Below are positions 3 to 7,802 of a DNA stretch of 64,000 bases, piece by piece. Source of the stretch: an uncultured Clostridia bacterium (GTDB taxonomy: Bacteria > Bacillota > Clostridia > Oscillospirales > Acutalibacteraceae). A program made the position numbers and the translations under genes. The notes below the pieces were generated by a model, which saw nothing but the letters and a program-made list of their open reading frames with translations, ran no database searches and was not told where the DNA came from. The stretch's first letter is position 1. Each line of letters begins with the position of its first letter. The stretch is from the NCBI GenBank assembly GCA_947628175.1, contig CANQZA010000002.1:16033-80032 (forward strand). The letters are read 5' to 3'.

Positions 3-1373
3 GATATGGGCTTTTCAAGCTCATATGTTAAATTTTATTCCAAATATAAAAGCCTTAATCAATTTGACAAGATAAACAGCTTTAATTCGCTGTATTTTAC
101 TGTTTTCTCTGCCATTGCTGCTATTTCTGCGGCTATAGGTTTGTTTTTGACATTTAATCTCCGGCTCGTATTTGATGAAGGTCTCACAAACAGTGAATAT
201 TCAAAAGCGCGGATTATGATGCTTGCCATGACGGTGTCAATGGCACTTGGTTTTATTACAACGATATTCGGCAGCTATATTTCGGTACATCAAAAATTTA
301 TATTTACCAAATCGTTCGGACTGGCTAATACAATCGCAACCTTTATTGTGGATATAATTGTATTATACCTCGGTTTCGGTGCCGTGGGAATTGTGTTTGC
401 AACATTAATTCTGGGCACAATTCACAAATGCATTAATATATTTTATTCTTATAAAAAGCTTCATTTTAAATTTGATTTTAAACATATCGAAAAAGAGCTT
501 TTCAGGCAGGTTTTCTCCTTTTCCGGACTCATCGCAATTAATATGATTGTGGATAAGGTAAACAGCGGCATAGACAGTGTTTTGCTCGGCCGCTTCTGCG
601 GAACTGCGGCTGTTGCCGTATATGCAATCGGCGCAAGTATCAACAGCCAGTTTACTTCTTTTTCAACTGCCATATCGGGAATATTCACCCCGCATATACA
701 CAGCCTTGTAAATGCATATGAAATGGATTCCAAAGAGCAGAGATCTGCGCTTACGGCTCTTTTCATCAAGGTCGGTCGCGTCCAATATCTTCTTCTGGCT
801 CTTATTGCTTCGGGCTTCGTTTTCTTCGGTCAAAAATTCATTTACTTTTGGGCGGGCGAGGGATACGAAAAATCCTACTATGTTGCTCTTCTTCTTATCA
901 TTCCGGCAATTGTTCCCCTGATTCAGAATGTCGGAATTGAAATTCAAAGAGCAGAAAACAGGCATCATTACCGCTCGTATATTTACGGTGCTATGGCGAT
1001 TATAAATCTCATAGTCAGTATTTTCCTTTGCCAGATCTGGGAAGGTATAGGCTGTGCCGCAGGTACCGCCTTTGCGCTCATTACCGCTAACGGAATTATC
1101 ATGAATATTGTCTATCACAAAAAAATCAATATTGACATTATACAGTTCTGGAAAAATATTCTCAGACAGACGCTCGGTATGATTCTTCCGTTTATATGCG
1201 GTACGCTCATAATGAAGTTTGCCAAAATTAATTCAATATTTGAACTGGTATTCTATATCATCGTTTATACTGCCGTTTACTGTGTTTGCGTTTGGTTTAT
1301 GTCCGCAAACAATTATGAAAAAAGCCTGATCACAGATTTTCTGAAAAAGTTTTCAAAAAAACGAATACATTGA
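3..1373 (+). CDS. Polysaccharide/oligosaccharide flippase (MATE/Wzx-like), 5' end cut by window edge
   Basis: Multi-TM protein with flippase-like motifs (GFSSSYVKFYSKYK; GYEKSYYVALLLIIPAIVPLIQNVGIEIQRAENRHHYRS); the frame is open to the window start. Confidence 0.85.
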   Translation, partial: DMGFSSSYVKFYSKYKSLNQFDKINSFNSLYFTVFSAIAAISAAIGLFLTFNLRLVFDEGLTNSEYSKARIMMLAMTVSMALGFITTIFGSYISVHQKFIFTKSFGLANTIATFIVDIIVLYLGFGAVGIVFATLILGTIHKCINIFYSYKKLHFKFDFKHIEKELFRQVFSFSGLIAINMIVDKVNSGIDSVLLGRFCGTAAVAVYAIGASINSQFTSFSTAISGIFTPHIHSLVNAYEMDSKEQRSALTALFIKVGRVQYLLLALIASGFVFFGQKFIYFWAGEGYEKSYYVALLLIIPAIVPLIQNVGIEIQRAENRHHYRSYIYGAMAIINLIVSIFLCQIWEGIGCAAGTAFALITANGIIMNIVYHKKINIDIIQFWKNILRQTLGMILPFICGTLIMKFAKINSIFELVFYIIVYTAVYCVCVWFMSANNYEKSLITDFLKKFSKKRIH

Positions 1374-1470: not shown

Positions 1471-2418
1471 ATGGAATATCCAAAAATCAGTGTTATTGTA
1501 CCGATTTACAATGTGGAAAAATACCTGGACAAATGTATTGAAAGCATTGTAAATCAAACCTACCAAAATCTTGAAATCCTGCTTGTTGACGACGGCTCAC
1601 CCGACAACTGCCCCCGCATTTGCGACAAATGGGCAAAACGAGACAGCCGCATCAGAGTAATTCACAAAAAAAACGGCGGTGTTTCGACTTCGCGCAATGC
1701 CGGCCTTGATGCCGCAACCGGCGATTATATCGGTTTTGTTGACGGAGACGATATTATATCGCCTGATATGTATCAGACGCTTTATACAACACTTATTAAA
1801 AATAATGTTCAGATAAGCTTTTGTTCCTTTTGCTCCCTTGACGAAAACTTTAATAAAAGAAATGTCGGGCGTCTGTTTTCTCCGACCCCTAAAGTTTATT
1901 CTTCTGATGATATTCTTAAAGAAATTTTTGTCTCTATAGATTGTCATTTAGTATCCCTTTGCAATAAACTGTTTCAAAAACAGCTTTTTGACGGTCTTCG
2001 TTTTCCGGAGGGAAGAGTGTTTGAGGATTGGACGCTGGCTCCGATTATATACTCTAAAGCCGAAAAGCTATACTTTGTTCCGAAAAAATACTATTGCTAT
2101 ATTATACACCAAGGAAGTATTGTGCGCACCAAAACCATAAAACGATATTATGACTGTGTGCTTGCCGACTATGATCATTATAAGTATTTTAACCATCAGT
2201 CCATAACAGATTATAATGATAAAATCGTTTTTATCATCTGGGCTGATTTCAGAAAAATGTGTAAAACATACAGACCGTCAAGAACAAACAGACAGATGCT
2301 TAACGACGCATACAAAAAGTGCTGTGAAGTAAGAAAAAGCAAAAAGGGCGCGTTATTTTATCATTTTCCAAATACAATAAGAATTCTTGCCGATATTAAA
2401 AACAGAATTGAAAAATAG
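1471..2418 (+). CDS. Family 2 glycosyltransferase
   Basis: N-terminus ISVIVPIYNVEKYLDKCIESIVNQTYQNLEILLVDDGSPDNCP and GDYIGFVDGDD are classic GT-A family 2 motifs. Confidence 0.92.
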   Translation: MEYPKISVIVPIYNVEKYLDKCIESIVNQTYQNLEILLVDDGSPDNCPRICDKWAKRDSRIRVIHKKNGGVSTSRNAGLDAATGDYIGFVDGDDIISPDMYQTLYTTLIKNNVQISFCSFCSLDENFNKRNVGRLFSPTPKVYSSDDILKEIFVSIDCHLVSLCNKLFQKQLFDGLRFPEGRVFEDWTLAPIIYSKAEKLYFVPKKYYCYIIHQGSIVRTKTIKRYYDCVLADYDHYKYFNHQSITDYNDKIVFIIWADFRKMCKTYRPSRTNRQMLNDAYKKCCEVRKSKKGALFYHFPNTIRILADIKNRIEK

Positions 2419-2446
2419 AACTTGACGCTTAGAGAGGTTAACTGAA

Positions 2447-3208
2447 ATGAAATTATCAACAATACTGAAAAAGGGAAAAAACAAAATAAAAAGAATTTGT
2501 GAGAAAAAATACATAAATTTAAAATACGGAAGCGAAATAAAGAATTATAAAGATAAATTTAAAGGTAAGCGCTGCTTTATCATAGGAAACGGTCCGAGTC
2601 TTACTACTGATGATCTTGAAAAAATAAAGGATGAGTACACCTTTGCCTCTCATTTTATTTATAAAATTTTTGACAAAACCTCATGGCGCCCCACTTTTTA
2701 TTGTGTTGAAGATTATAATTTTTTAATACAGAATATTGATAAAGTTAAAACCCTCTCTCCGGAATATGAACACGGCTTCTTTTCAGGGAATATTTATAAA
2801 TCTCTCCCCGCTGATTTTCTTAAAAATAAAAAAAACAGCTTCTGGTATGTTGCCATGTTCAACTGGGAAAGCAATCCGTCTTTTTCATTTGATATAAGCG
2901 ATTATATTGCAGAAGGCATGACTGTTACATATTGCAATATACAGCTTGCCGTCTATATGGGTTTCAGCGAAATTTATCTTTTAGGAATAGACCATTTTTA
3001 TGAACCGCATAACAGCTACAGTGAATTTATAGGAAAAGACAGCACGGTATACAATGCGCCAAGGCTTGACAAATCCACTCTTGCTTACCGTAAGGCCGCA
3101 AAGGTTTGCAAAGAAAAGGGTATAAAAATTTATAACGCGACCAGAGGCGGCCACCTTGAAGAATTTGAAAGAATTGATTTTGACAGCATTGCGCAGAAAG
3201 GTGAATGA
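2447..3208 (+). CDS. DUF115 / MptE-like (PF01973-type) protein, copy 1
   Basis: CFIIGNGPSL...WRPTFYCVEDYN...YLLGIDHFY...KIYNATRGGHLEEFERIDFDS matches the capsule-associated DUF115 family. Confidence 0.82.
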   Translation: MKLSTILKKGKNKIKRICEKKYINLKYGSEIKNYKDKFKGKRCFIIGNGPSLTTDDLEKIKDEYTFASHFIYKIFDKTSWRPTFYCVEDYNFLIQNIDKVKTLSPEYEHGFFSGNIYKSLPADFLKNKKNSFWYVAMFNWESNPSFSFDISDYIAEGMTVTYCNIQLAVYMGFSEIYLLGIDHFYEPHNSYSEFIGKDSTVYNAPRLDKSTLAYRKAAKVCKEKGIKIYNATRGGHLEEFERIDFDSIAQKGE

Positions 3209-3209
3209 A

Positions 3210-4118
3210 GTGGAATTATCAACAATACTGAAAAAGGGAAAAAACAAAATAAAAAGAATTTGTGAGAAAAAATACATAAATTTAAAATACGGAAGCGAAA
3301 TAAAGAATTATAAAGATAAATTTAAAGGTAAGCGCTGCTTTATCATAGGAAACGGTCCGAGTCTTACTACTGATGACCTTGAAAAAATAAAGGATGAATC
3401 CTCTTTTGCGGCAAATTTAATTTATAAAAGTTTTGATAAAACCTCATGGCGTCCCACTTTTTATTGCGTTGAAGATTATAATGTATTGGAAAAAAACATT
3501 GACGAAATAAAAAAACTCTCGCCGGAATATGAACACGGCTTCTTTTCAGGGAATATTTATAAATCTCTCCCGTCCGATTTTCTTAAAAATAAAAAAAACA
3601 GCTTCTGGTATGTCGCCATGTTCAACTGGGAAAGCAATCCGTCTTTTTCATTTGATATAAGCGATTATATTGCGGAAGGCATGACTGTTACATATTGCAA
3701 TATACAGCTTGCCGTCTATATGGGTTTCAGCGAAATTTATCTTTTGGGAATAGACCATTTTTATGAACCGCTCAACAGCTACAGTGAAATAATCGGAGCT
3801 GCCAATGAAGTTTACAATGTTCCGCGGCTTGACAAATCCACTCTTGCTTACCGTAAGGCCGCAAAGGTTTGCAAAGAAAAGGGTATAAAAATTTATAACG
3901 CGACCAGAGGCGGCCACCTTGAAGAATTCGAGAGAGTTGATTTTGACTCCTTATTCGCTGATAATAGTACACCCCCCCCCCGCAGAAATAATTTAATTGC
4001 GGCATATTGCATACATGCCTGTTTTTACAAAAACCGCAGCACAAAAATGATGGCTCTGTCTGCGGCGGTAAACTTCAAAAATTTAATGATGCTGATTTCC
4101 GTTCATTGTTTGATTTGA
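3210..4118 (+). CDS. DUF115 / MptE-like protein, copy 2, ending in a poly-C-encoded PPP and a ~45-aa non-DUF115 tail
   Basis: GTG start at 3210 (VELSTILKKG), almost identical to copy 1 over the N-terminal ~60 aa; the frame runs through C10 at 3972-3981 and ends at TGA 4116-4118. Confidence 0.78.
   Translation: MELSTILKKGKNKIKRICEKKYINLKYGSEIKNYKDKFKGKRCFIIGNGPSLTTDDLEKIKDESSFAANLIYKSFDKTSWRPTFYCVEDYNVLEKNIDEIKKLSPEYEHGFFSGNIYKSLPSDFLKNKKNSFWYVAMFNWESNPSFSFDISDYIAEGMTVTYCNIQLAVYMGFSEIYLLGIDHFYEPLNSYSEIIGAANEVYNVPRLDKSTLAYRKAAKVCKEKGIKIYNATRGGHLEEFERVDFDSLFADNSTPPPRRNNLIAAYCIHACFYKNRSTKMMALSAAVNFKNLMMLISVHCLI
3972..3981 (+). repeat. Homopolymeric C10 tract at the 3' end of DUF115 copy 2
   Basis: agtaca-CCCCCCCCCC-gcagaaataatt read directly from the sequence. 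Confidence 0.97.
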
Positions 4119-4200
4119 ATAGACATTCAGATGACAAACACGAAACAAAAGCACCTAACAATGAAAGGAAATTCATGATGAAAATTATTGGAGTAATTCC
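3972..4200 (+). repeat. Direct repeat unit A: poly-C + linker + RBS + start of kdsB-like gene
   Basis: gcagaaataatttaattgcggcatattgcatac...gaaaggaaattcatgatgaaaattattggagtaattcc recurs at 4965-5183 with about 11 substitutions. Confidence 0.93.
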
Positions 4201-5101
4201 GGCACGACAGGAATCATCCCGATTCCCGGGAAAACCGCTTGCCGATATATGCGGAAAGCCAATGGTATGGTGGGTATATATGCAGGCAGCTCAAGTTGAA
4301 GAATTTGATGAGGTAATTGTCGCCACTGATGATGAAAATATTTTTAATGTATGTAAATCTTTAGGCATAAATGTTTTGATGACATCAAAACATCATCCCA
4401 CAGGTACTGACAGAACTGTCGAGGTTTCTGAAAAAATCAAGGGCGATTTATATATTGTTGTTATGGGTGATGAGCCTTTGATTTCACCTGACAACATTCG
4501 GGCTATGCTATATGCAATGCTTTCTGATAAAAAGTATGATGCGGGTATGCTTTGCACAAAATTTAAAAACGGTGTTGATGTAATTAACACATCCACAATA
4601 AAGTTAGCCGTAAACAATCAGTCCGAGCTGATTTATATGTCACGGCTTCCCATTCCGTTTCCTAAATCCTCATTAAACTACAATCATTATAAAAATGTAG
4701 GCGTTTATGCGTATACAAAAAATACACTTAATTTTTTCAGGAATACTGCACGCGGTAAGCTTGAAGAAATAGAGGATATGGAAATGCTCCGTATGCTTGA
4801 ACACCATAAATTGGTTAAAGTGGTCGAAGTAACTACGGAATCCATGTCTATTGACACACCAAAAGACCTTGCGCGTATACGCGTAATTGCCGCTGATAAA
4901 ATAAAAAGGCGCGAACTTCCGCCTGCATTCATTTCAAAAATAAGTGCAGTTACAACCCCCCCCCGCAGAAATAATTTAATTGCGGCATATTGCATACACC
5001 CCTGTTTTTACAAAAACCGCAGCACAAAAATGATGGCCTTGTCTGCGGCAGTATACTTTAAAAATTTAATGATGCTGATTTCCGTTCATTGTTTGATTTG
5101 A
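4175..5101 (+). CDS. KdsB-like CMP-sugar (3-deoxy-ulosonate) cytidylyltransferase, copy 1, with poly-C-encoded tail
   Basis: MKIIGVIPARQESSRFPGKPLADICGKPM...VATDDENIF...HPTGTDR...GDEPLI is the KdsB / CTP_transf_3 signature; the 3' end reads through C9 at 4956-4964. Confidence 0.85.
   Translation: MMKIIGVIPARQESSRFPGKPLADICGKPMVWWVYMQAAQVEEFDEVIVATDDENIFNVCKSLGINVLMTSKHHPTGTDRTVEVSEKIKGDLYIVVMGDEPLISPDNIRAMLYAMLSDKKYDAGMLCTKFKNGVDVINTSTIKLAVNNQSELIYMSRLPIPFPKSSLNYNHYKNVGVYAYTKNTLNFFRNTARGKLEEIEDMEMLRMLEHHKLVKVVEVTTESMSIDTPKDLARIRVIAADKIKRRELPPAFISKISAVTTPPRRNNLIAAYCIHPCFYKNRSTKMMALSAAVYFKNLMMLISVHCLI
4956..4964 (+). repeat. Homopolymeric C9 tract at the 3' end of kdsB-like copy 1
   Basis: gcagttacaa-CCCCCCCCC-gcagaaataatt. 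Confidence 0.97.
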
Positions 5102-5183
5102 ATAGACATCCAGATGACAAACACGAAACAAAAATACTTAACAATGAAAGGAAATTCATGATGAAAATTATTGGAGTAATTCC
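4956..5183 (+). repeat. Direct repeat unit B: poly-C + linker + RBS + start of kdsB-like copy 2
   Basis: Second copy of repeat unit A, offset by 983 bp. Confidence 0.93.
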
Positions 5184-5910
5184 TGCTCGATATAAGTCAA
5201 GCAGATTTGAAGGAAAGCCGCTGGCCGACATAAACGGAAAACCCATGATTTATTGGGTATACAGTCAATGCAAAAAAGTCGAAGATTTTGATGCGGTATA
5301 TGTCGCCACCGATGATCATAAAATATTTGATACTTGCAAAGCTCTGAATATGGATGTCATAATGACATCCCCGACGCACCCTACCGGAACGGACAGAATT
5401 GGCGAGGTTGCAAAAAAAATTCCTGCAGATTTATATGTTAATATTCAGGGTGACGAACCGCTGATAGAACCTGAAACCATCCGGCAGGCAATCCTGCCTT
5501 TTTATGAAAATCCTGATTTGAAGGTCTCAAATCTTATGACAAGGATTGAAAATCCTGTCGATGTTGTTAATTTTACCGTTCCGAAGGTTATTGTAAATAA
5601 AAATAACACAGGCATTTATCTTACAAGGTCAACAGCACCGTATCCAAAGGGAAAAATTGAGTATAATTATTACAAACAGGTCTGTGTTTACGGAATGAAA
5701 CCCGACGCTCTTGAATTTTTCTGTGATTACGGAAAGAAATACGGAAAAGCACGCATTGAAGCCATAGAGGATATTGAAATTCTGCGTTTCATAGAAAACG
5801 GTTATAAGGTTCAATATGTGGAGGTAAACAGTGAAACAATAGCTGTCGATACCAAAAATGATTTAAAGCGTGTTAATGAATATGTTATTAAAAATAATAT
5901 CCAGATTTAA
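5158..5910 (+). CDS. KdsB-like CMP-sugar (3-deoxy-ulosonate) cytidylyltransferase, copy 2
   Basis: MKIIGVIPARYKSSRFEGKPLADINGKPMIYWVYSQ...VATDDHKIF...HPTGTDRIGEV...NIQGDEPLIEPETI; KdsB family motifs. Confidence 0.88.
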   Translation: MMKIIGVIPARYKSSRFEGKPLADINGKPMIYWVYSQCKKVEDFDAVYVATDDHKIFDTCKALNMDVIMTSPTHPTGTDRIGEVAKKIPADLYVNIQGDEPLIEPETIRQAILPFYENPDLKVSNLMTRIENPVDVVNFTVPKVIVNKNNTGIYLTRSTAPYPKGKIEYNYYKQVCVYGMKPDALEFFCDYGKKYGKARIEAIEDIEILRFIENGYKVQYVEVNSETIAVDTKNDLKRVNEYVIKNNIQI

Positions 5911-5922
5911 ACGGAGCTTGCT

Positions 5923-6693
5923 ATGAATAATTCTTTAAAAAAAATCCGTGATGCATTGGATGCAGGCAAATGTATTTACGGTCCTTTTATGAAAACAAAT
6001 GATCCGATGTTTGTTGAGGCAGCAGGACTGGCAGGGTTTGACTTTGTAATACTTGATACAGAGCACGGTCCTGTTTCATTTGAAAGTCAGCAAAATAACA
6101 TTCGTGCTGCCGAAGCAAGACAAACTGTACCTATTATTCGCCTGAAAGATCATAATGAAAACACAATCGGACAGGCTCTTGATATTGGCGCATACGGTAT
6201 TCAGGTTCCGCAGATTACAACTGCACAGGAAGCAAAAGATGTAGTTAAATTTGCAAAATTTTATCCTTACGGAAGCAGAGGAGTCTGCCGTTTTGTACGG
6301 GCCGCCGATTATTCCGCCATGGACAGATATAAATATTTTGAGAGTTCAAAGGATATTCTGATTATCCTTCAATTGGAAGGCGTTGACGCTTTAAAAAATC
6401 TGAATGAAATTATTGAAGTTGACGGTGTGGATATTCTCTTTATCGGGCCTTATGACCTTTCCCAGTCTCTTGGAATTCCCGGTCAGATAAACAACCCCGT
6501 TGTCGTTGAGTCAATGTGTAAAATTGTATCCAAAGCAAAGGCTAAAAATAAGGTTATAGGCGTATTTGTTGATACGCTTGAGGATTTAAGTATGTGGCGG
6601 GATATGGGTATTCAGTATTTAAGCTATTCCGTTGATATCGGCATTTTTATGGACGCCTGCAAAAATCTTATTGATACATTTAAAGCGGAGTGA
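5923..6693 (+). CDS. HpcH/HpaI-family class II aldolase (2-keto-3-deoxy acid aldolase)
   Basis: GPFMKTNDPMFVEAAGLAGFDFVILDTEHGPVSFES...IPIIRLKDH-like...GAYGIQVPQITTAQEA...LFIGPYDLSQSLGIPGQ: HpcH_HpaI (PF03328) motifs. Confidence 0.9.
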   Translation: MNNSLKKIRDALDAGKCIYGPFMKTNDPMFVEAAGLAGFDFVILDTEHGPVSFESQQNNIRAAEARQTVPIIRLKDHNENTIGQALDIGAYGIQVPQITTAQEAKDVVKFAKFYPYGSRGVCRFVRAADYSAMDRYKYFESSKDILIILQLEGVDALKNLNEIIEVDGVDILFIGPYDLSQSLGIPGQINNPVVVESMCKIVSKAKAKNKVIGVFVDTLEDLSMWRDMGIQYLSYSVDIGIFMDACKNLIDTFKAE

Positions 6694-6722: not shown

Positions 6723-7802
6723 ATGGTTATTACATTTTTTATTCTCTTTCTGCTATGTTTGTATAACATTAAGTTTTCATTAGCAGACAACATCAGATTA
6801 ACAGATAACAATATAGTTACAACCCCCCCCCGCACGAATTATCTATCAATTGACAGGACGAATTCCATTAAAGGTATTTTTATTTTATTAATCTTTATAA
6901 GCCATGCCCAAAAATATATAGAGCTTAATGATTCAATTATGAACACACTTTATTACAAATTAAACGGATTTGTGATAGGTCAGTCTGTAGTGGCTATGTT
7001 TTTATTCTACTCCGGATACGGTGTGATGTTTTCCATTTGCAAAAAGGGTGACGCTTATATAAAATCAATTCCGTCCAAAAGAGTGCTTAAAGTCCTTTTA
7101 CATTTTGACATCGCAATACTTTTGTACTTGATATTGCAGTTGGTTTTGGGAAAGCATTTTTCAATATCAAAAATTTTACTTTCCTTTACTGCATGGGAAA
7201 CGATAGGCAACAGCAACTGGTATATTTTTTCAATCCTGATTCTTTATTTAATTACATATTTTTCTTTCATGCTTTTCAAAAACAACAAAACCATCGCTTT
7301 ATCCATGACTTTTGTTCTGACCGTTGTGATGATACTGGTTTTGCGTCAATTCAAGGAAATATGGTGGTACGATACGGTCATCATTTATCCTATCGGAATG
7401 ACATATTATTTTGTTCGTGATAAGCTCGAACGGCTGTTTGACAAAAAACCGTGGGTTTATTGGCTGAGTCTGTTTGCCTTGTGCGTTTTATTTATTTTAT
7501 CTCTGCTGAAAAAAAGCAATTTTTTTGTTCTTGAGCTTAATCATATTCTTTTTACCTTTATTGTTCTTTTTGTAACGATGAAAGTTCAGATTCACAACAA
7601 AATTCTTTGCTTTTTCGGCAAAAATCTTTTTTCCGTATATATACTTCAACAACTTCCCATGATTGCTTTTTCTTACCTGGGCGTTAATAATTATCCGGCG
7701 CTGTTTCTCCTTCTCTGCCTCGCGACTACTGTGCTGATAAGTTTTCCTTTTAATTTTATTTTATCAAGGCTTGACAAGGCAGTTTTTTATAATAAAAAAT
7801 GA
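6723..7802 (+). CDS. Acyltransferase 3 family membrane protein with in-frame poly-C tract near the N-terminus
   Basis: RTNSIKGIFILLIFISHAQKY...FLFYSGYGVMFS and multiple TM segments typical of acyltransferase 3; C9 lies at codons ~34-37. Confidence 0.82.
   Translation: MVITFFILFLLCLYNIKFSLADNIRLTDNNIVTTPPRTNYLSIDRTNSIKGIFILLIFISHAQKYIELNDSIMNTLYYKLNGFVIGQSVVAMFLFYSGYGVMFSICKKGDAYIKSIPSKRVLKVLLHFDIAILLYLILQLVLGKHFSISKILLSFTAWETIGNSNWYIFSILILYLITYFSFMLFKNNKTIALSMTFVLTVVMILVLRQFKEIWWYDTVIIYPIGMTYYFVRDKLERLFDKKPWVYWLSLFALCVLFILSLLKKSNFFVLELNHILFTFIVLFVTMKVQIHNKILCFFGKNLFSVYILQQLPMIAFSYLGVNNYPALFLLLCLATTVLISFPFNFILSRLDKAVFYNKK
6823..6831 (+). repeat. Homopolymeric C9 tract inside the acyltransferase CDS
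   Basis: atagttacaa-CCCCCCCCC-gcacgaattatc. Confidence 0.97.

Follow-up and report, generated by a model that had tools for sequence, protein, structure and literature searches.

A poly-C tract in a predicted acyltransferase gene of an uncultured gut Clostridia bacterium, a candidate phase-variation switch among a genome-wide set of C/G tracts

Translational phase variation of surface-glycan genes at simple sequence repeats is a feature of the phasomes of Campylobacter jejuni, Helicobacter and Neisseria (PMC6321876, PMC11868660). The genome described here resembles them in having long intragenic poly-C/G tracts at many loci, in the truncation of the product at out-of-frame lengths, and in the surface-glycan enzymes concerned. 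It differs in the host, which belongs to a Gram-positive lineage of gut Clostridia, and in the directional flanks of the tracts. O-acetylation is phase-variable through oafA in non-typeable Haemophilus influenzae (Wills 2023, as cited in PMC11868660), and NeuO of Escherichia coli K1 is a phase-variable polysialate O-acetyltransferase (PMC3046976). As with oafA and NeuO, the gene at the tract is a predicted glycan acyl- or acetyltransferase; unlike this gene, which is of the Acyl_transf_3 family, NeuO is a hexapeptide enzyme and is borne by a prophage. The repeat units of Haemophilus oafA and E. coli NeuO are longer than one base. C-terminal phase variation, resulting from tracts near gene 3' ends, has been described in Helicobacter canadensis (PMC2823697). 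Two tracts of the present locus, at 3972 and 4956, are similarly placed and would alter the C-terminus, but the genes concerned are two unrelated ones that end in almost identical tails of 45 residues, a product of tandem duplication. Slippage switches sortase pili ON and OFF in Bifidobacterium breve (PMC9187656), a Gram-positive gut commensal in which, as predicted here, replication slippage does the switching; the switched genes are pilus genes rather than glycan enzymes, and the phylum is another one.

Poly-C/G tracts over 2 bases were mostly under-represented in a survey of 99 genomes (PMC2831843), and a 2025 review regards as an open question whether multi-locus phase variation is confined to pathogens. 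Searches of the open-licence literature turned up no account of poly-C phasomes from these gut Clostridia. The mechanism is already known, and is little described in this lineage; sets of a dozen tracts are well known in some pathogens and little described in gut commensals.

The tract studied is a run of nine C residues located in a 64-kb window (the whole stretch of DNA analysed, 64,000 nucleotides, bases 16033-80032 of contig C2), inside a glycan locus whose features are collected in Table 1.

Table 1. Features of the glycan locus and of the acyltransferase gene (window positions)
Feature	Position	Strand	Remarks
Polysaccharide flippase-like gene	6..1373	+	PF13440/PF01943
Glycosyltransferase family 2 (GT2) gene	1471..2418	+	PF00535
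MptE-like gene, second tandem copy	3210..4118	+	PF01973
C10 tract, 3' end of second MptE-like gene	3972..3981	+	as assembled leads to a 45-48 residue tail
Cytidylyltransferase 1	4175..5101	+	PF02348
C9 tract, 3' end of cytidylyltransferase 1	4956..4964	+	as assembled leads to a near-identical tail
Cytidylyltransferase 2	5161..5910	+	PF02348; paralogue without tract
HpcH/HpaI aldolase	5923..6693	+	PF03328; adjoins acyltransferase upstream
Acyltransferase gene, 359 aa	6723..7802	+	PF01757 Acyl_transf_3; profile match E 8.8e-14, residues 48-342
N-terminal membrane helix region, residues 1-22	6723..6788	+	AlphaFold2 model and alignment
Linker, residues 23-35	6789..6827	+	AlphaFold2 model and alignment
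C9 tract, predicted switch	6823..6831	+	codons 34-37, ACC CCC CCC CGC = T P P R; in frame as assembled
Invariant His61 codon	6903..6905	+	alignment of 40 sequences; lost in both OFF frames
Core-2/I-branching type glycosyltransferase	7850..8710	+	PF02485; adjoins acyltransferase downstream
CDP-glycerol glycerophosphotransferase	8804..10144	-	PF04464

The acyltransferase matches PF01757 with 51.7 bits, against a curated cut-off of 31, and its ATG is preceded by a GGAGG at about 11 nt. Two hallmarks of the family, a conserved, membrane-embedded His in the first part of the domain and a membrane fold of several helices, are recognized in the alignment (His61) and in the model. The AlphaFold2 model, computed on the alignment, is confident (mean pLDDT 90.2) and all-helical; pLDDT drops below 50 in the linker only, at the end of which, from residue 34 on, the tract codons are found. 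This linker, which joins the N-terminal helix to the domain, is longer than in 39 homologues, all of which have no tract. No significant match was found for the protein in a fold search against solved structures. Named relatives come chiefly from gut and faecal Clostridia assemblies. From its family and neighbour genes, the enzyme is presumed to O-acylate a surface polymer. The latter is likely of the capsule or teichoic-acid type, as suggested by the flippase, the GT2, the two cytidylyltransferases, the aldolase, the branching-type transferase and the glycerophosphotransferase, the last of which marks a locus of this kind.

Tract lengths from 5 to 14 were translated in silico. The full enzyme is encoded at C6, C9 and C12 only; all other lengths give a stub of 42-57 residues without catalytic domain, as translation stops within the linker or shortly past it, and little is retained beyond the N-terminal helix and the linker. 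The C10 allele reads CCG CAC GAA TTA TCT ATC AAT and then a stop, giving a product of 43 aa; the product of the C8 allele is 55 aa long. The first-pass annotation had placed the tract exactly here, within an open frame of 359 aa, and had predicted that one C more or one C fewer would bring an early stop and remove the catalytic membrane domain. All this is borne out by the translations, His61 being absent in both OFF frames. The same annotation had named an internal start past the tract as what would speak against a switch. ATG, GTG or TTG codons are not found in frame between the tract and His61, the earliest being codon 73, which lies past G51, F53 and His61, the three residues invariant in the 40 aligned sequences; bypass by internal initiation was accordingly rejected. 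Other upstream frames were scanned at +1 or -1 base, and no ORF was found to run into the acyltransferase domain.

Tracts of this length are not expected by chance. Four C9 matches, at three sites (3972-3981, 4956-4964, 6823-6831), are present in the window against 0.07 expected, and the probability that T-P-P-R be spelled with C9 is 0.0018, given the codon usage of this genome. The genome surveyed measures 2.24 Mb in 121 contigs and is 98% complete. Searches with flanked patterns, by which runs were counted genome-wide, detected 7 C/G runs of length 7, a single run of length 8, and 8, 3 and 1 runs of lengths 9, 10 and 11, respectively. The 12 runs of at least 9 bases compare with about 0.1 runs of 9 expected genome-wide, an estimate that follows from the roughly 8-fold drop of shorter C/G runs per added base. 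In 418 kb of fetched sequence, runs of 3, 4, 5 and 6 bases number 4171, 624, 76 and 9, runs of 7 or 8 are missing, and 12 are of 9 or more; no C/G run longer than 6 was found in twelve background stretches of 20 kb. A second length mode like that of C/G was not seen for A/T runs. Such a bimodal distribution of C/G run lengths marks tracts whose length is maintained. Window expectation, genome-wide counts and codon-usage probability led us to reject the hypothesis that the C9 is a chance run. Lack of mismatch repair was also rejected as the cause of the long tracts, since mutS and mutL are both intact.

The twelve tracts are found in two LicD genes, the MptE-like (3972) and cytidylyltransferase (4956) genes, the Acyl_transf_3 gene at 6823 and three more genes of this family on contigs C38, C55 and C93, and in genes for a YfhO membrane protein (contig C22), an MBOAT protein (C50), a hexapeptide transferase (C90) and a small DNA methyltransferase (C6). 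Surface-glycan or membrane-protein genes hold eleven of them, internally or at their ends, and five are clustered inside 13 kb of contig C2. Five are close to gene 3' ends, where a frameshift alters or drops a tail and spares the enzyme, which counts against the reading as ON/OFF switches. Ten Acyl_transf_3 genes were identified by family search, and the presence in four of a tract of at least 9 bases has a binomial probability of about 3e-7; the sole exact 8-base C/G run of the genome, a C8, resides in a fifth gene of the family, on contig C104. The G9 of the methyltransferase gene (L148:9971-9979) is located in a phage-like region, has reversed flanks and may not belong to the set.

Frames at the tracts vary from gene to gene. 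At the tract, the frame is open in the acyltransferase at 6723-7802 and in the MBOAT gene. It is lost there in the YfhO gene (contig C22) and in three acyltransferases (contigs C38, C93 and C104), in which the rest of the domain is open in another frame. The acyltransferase on contig C55 is open at the tract and broken further downstream. In the contig C104 gene (L285, tract at locus position 1909), the C8 splits the acyltransferase into two halves, both intact, in different frames. Mixed ON and OFF states with intact downstream frames are the pattern to be expected if the genes form a phase-variable set, and not if they are in decay.

About 100 homologues, 34-49% identical to the acyltransferase, have no tract in the linker. 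The exception is a Lachnospiraceae homologue from mouse gut (L129, MGBC collection, 39% identity), which carries a G10 (L129:4985-4994) in the equivalent linker, and whose acyltransferase domain is out of frame, hence OFF, in the assembly. As relatives are devoid of it, the tract was not inherited along with the gene family, and the L129 tract is an independent gain. The nearest orthologues, about 48% identical, are too distant for a comparison of tract lengths. In the congener G047, a different Acyl_transf_3 gene features a G11 at codon 11, in frame. Tracts of the congeners G021, G047 and G126 are found in Acyl_transf_3, MBOAT, LicD, GT2, cytidylyltransferase and aldolase genes, and in G021 and G126 also in ATP-grasp sugar-transfer genes. 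A close homologue of the aldolase at 5923-6693 has a G14 at its 3' end in G047 (L213); like loci therefore bear tracts in differing genes across species. In G176, C/G tracts are located within the signal-peptide-like N-termini of secreted-looking proteins (L267, L273), which looks like a natural position from which to turn surface proteins ON and OFF.

One may suppose that the C9 plays no switching role, its codons merely happening to form a run in a linker that tolerates it, and that the gene is constitutively on. Disorder and variable length of the linker, and intact mismatch repair, would fit. This is improbable in view of the gap in run lengths at 7-8 and the excess at 9-11, the concentration of tracts in acyltransferase genes, the sibling genes assembled OFF, and the independent tract in L129.

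We regard the C9 instead as a contingency locus for slipped-strand translational phase variation of the acyltransferase, currently ON and one of a genome-wide set, and assign to this reading a probability of about 85%. Slipped-strand mispairing at replication would add C residues to the tract or delete them, and the resulting frameshifts would be reversible; C6, C9 and C12 would keep the acyltransferase ON, and other lengths would leave a one-helix stub lacking the acyltransferase domain. With some 12 tracts switching surface-glycan genes individually, many glycan combinations could coexist in a clonal population. The tract presumably slips at a useful rate. With mutS and mutL both intact, the tract may slip less often than it would in species deficient in mismatch repair, and its rate may be modest. 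The benefit of switching would presumably be evasion of phage or host recognition. A phase-variable switch in the ON state was what the first-pass annotation had proposed, and the genome-wide tracts of 9-11 bases in like gene classes, several OFF with intact downstream frames, lend support to it. The annotation had noted the tract singly; the site stands, and the set around it had no place in that finding. This genome has the appearance of a dozen-locus phasome, in a lineage of gut Clostridia that is uncultured; comparable sets occur in several congeners and in less closely related Clostridia. If this is real, the surface-glycan types of common gut Clostridia would shift by slippage inside one strain, and phage susceptibility, antibody binding and strain typing would all be affected. 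A dozen-locus set with flanks that are directional throughout the class is more interesting than a single C9 switch.

The flanks fit the motif TA-C9+-GCRAAATTT, which is directional and the same whichever strand codes (examples are 6815-6845, L176, L205-L213 and L019-L038); its core is TA-C9-GC. Among 45 tracts from the genus, A precedes the C-run in 91%, G follows it in 84%, and C comes second after it in 62%, against 23%, 31% and 17%, respectively, for the C4-6 runs of this genome; T is enriched at +7 and +8. Polarity is not a codon effect, as it is seen with either C or G on the coding strand, and within this genome only the methyltransferase tract departs from it. In 81 congeneric genomes ACCCCCCCCCG occurs 28 times and its reversal, of equal composition, 4 times; for 392 genomes of the class the totals, summed by hand, are about 113 and 22, and for genomes having at least three tracts 93 and 5. 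That any C9 would be so flanked is not supported by IMG/VR viral contigs, in which TAC9GCG and its reversal were found 55 and 41 times. In a Campylobacter phage only two tracts of 8 or more bases were found, too few for a verdict on polarity, and neither has A..G flanks.

At 6823 the tract is inside an ORF and does not separate a -35 from a -10 box. Promoter-like spacers, recognized in 9 of 74 other tracts examined, account for part of the polarity, and were discarded as its general cause because only these nine fit. In G479, poly-G runs are found between TTGACA and TATAAT (TTGACA-G9-TATAAT) in spacers of 15-18 bases (L236, L237, L241, L243), and are likely phase-variable promoters of another Clostridia family. 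Contigs C7 and C16 of G479, and C172 and C195 of G004, have one of their ends only a few bases away from a C9; length heterogeneity or poly-G sequencing dropout could be the cause.

Flanks that are directional independently of the coding strand, their prevalence over the reversal in genus and class, and the G479 spacers could also mean that tract and flanks act first of all at the level of DNA, be it as a binding site, as a promoter spacer or as a seeded sequence, frame switching being secondary. The majority of the tracts in this genome are however intragenic, the simple promoter-spacer pattern is limited to the nine cases mentioned and no factor is known, which makes this highly improbable. 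Least probable of all is a rheostat, in which transcriptional or ribosomal slippage would yield some full-length enzyme from out-of-frame alleles and no clean ON/OFF states, as the homopolymer at which transcriptional slippage rescues frameshifted alleles in Buchnera (discussed in PMC2831843) is poly(A), and three sibling genes were assembled with the OFF allele, which points to stable genetic states. Rather unlikely, in our opinion, is that the tracts owe their seeding or upkeep to a sequence-specific process reading A-[C9]-GC flanks, and not to ordinary slippage at random runs; such a process might consist in a dedicated factor, in a copy mechanism or in a context that strongly favours slippage. 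If true, a lineage-wide hypermutable-tract system of this sort would be novel for gut Clostridia. How such tracts arise can be approached through their directional flanks.

The 3972 and 4956 tracts are a case apart. The tails that follow them are identical at 43 of 45 residues (96%), in spite of the different genes to which they are appended. Both tract lengths select one and the same tail frame from differing upstream frames, and one C more or fewer at either site ends the protein within 7 codons. A search for the tail across the fetched loci retrieved only the two window copies. The two tracts might constitute a C-terminal sequence switch. Adjacent tandem duplications involve the MptE-like genes (2443-3505), 91% identical over 300 nt, and the cytidylyltransferase genes (3968-5250), 89% identical over 300 nt around the start. 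Beside the glycan locus, at 10191-16968, genes named from their translations as serS, two parB-like, parA-like, rsmG and mnmG are found, an arrangement usual close to the replication origin.
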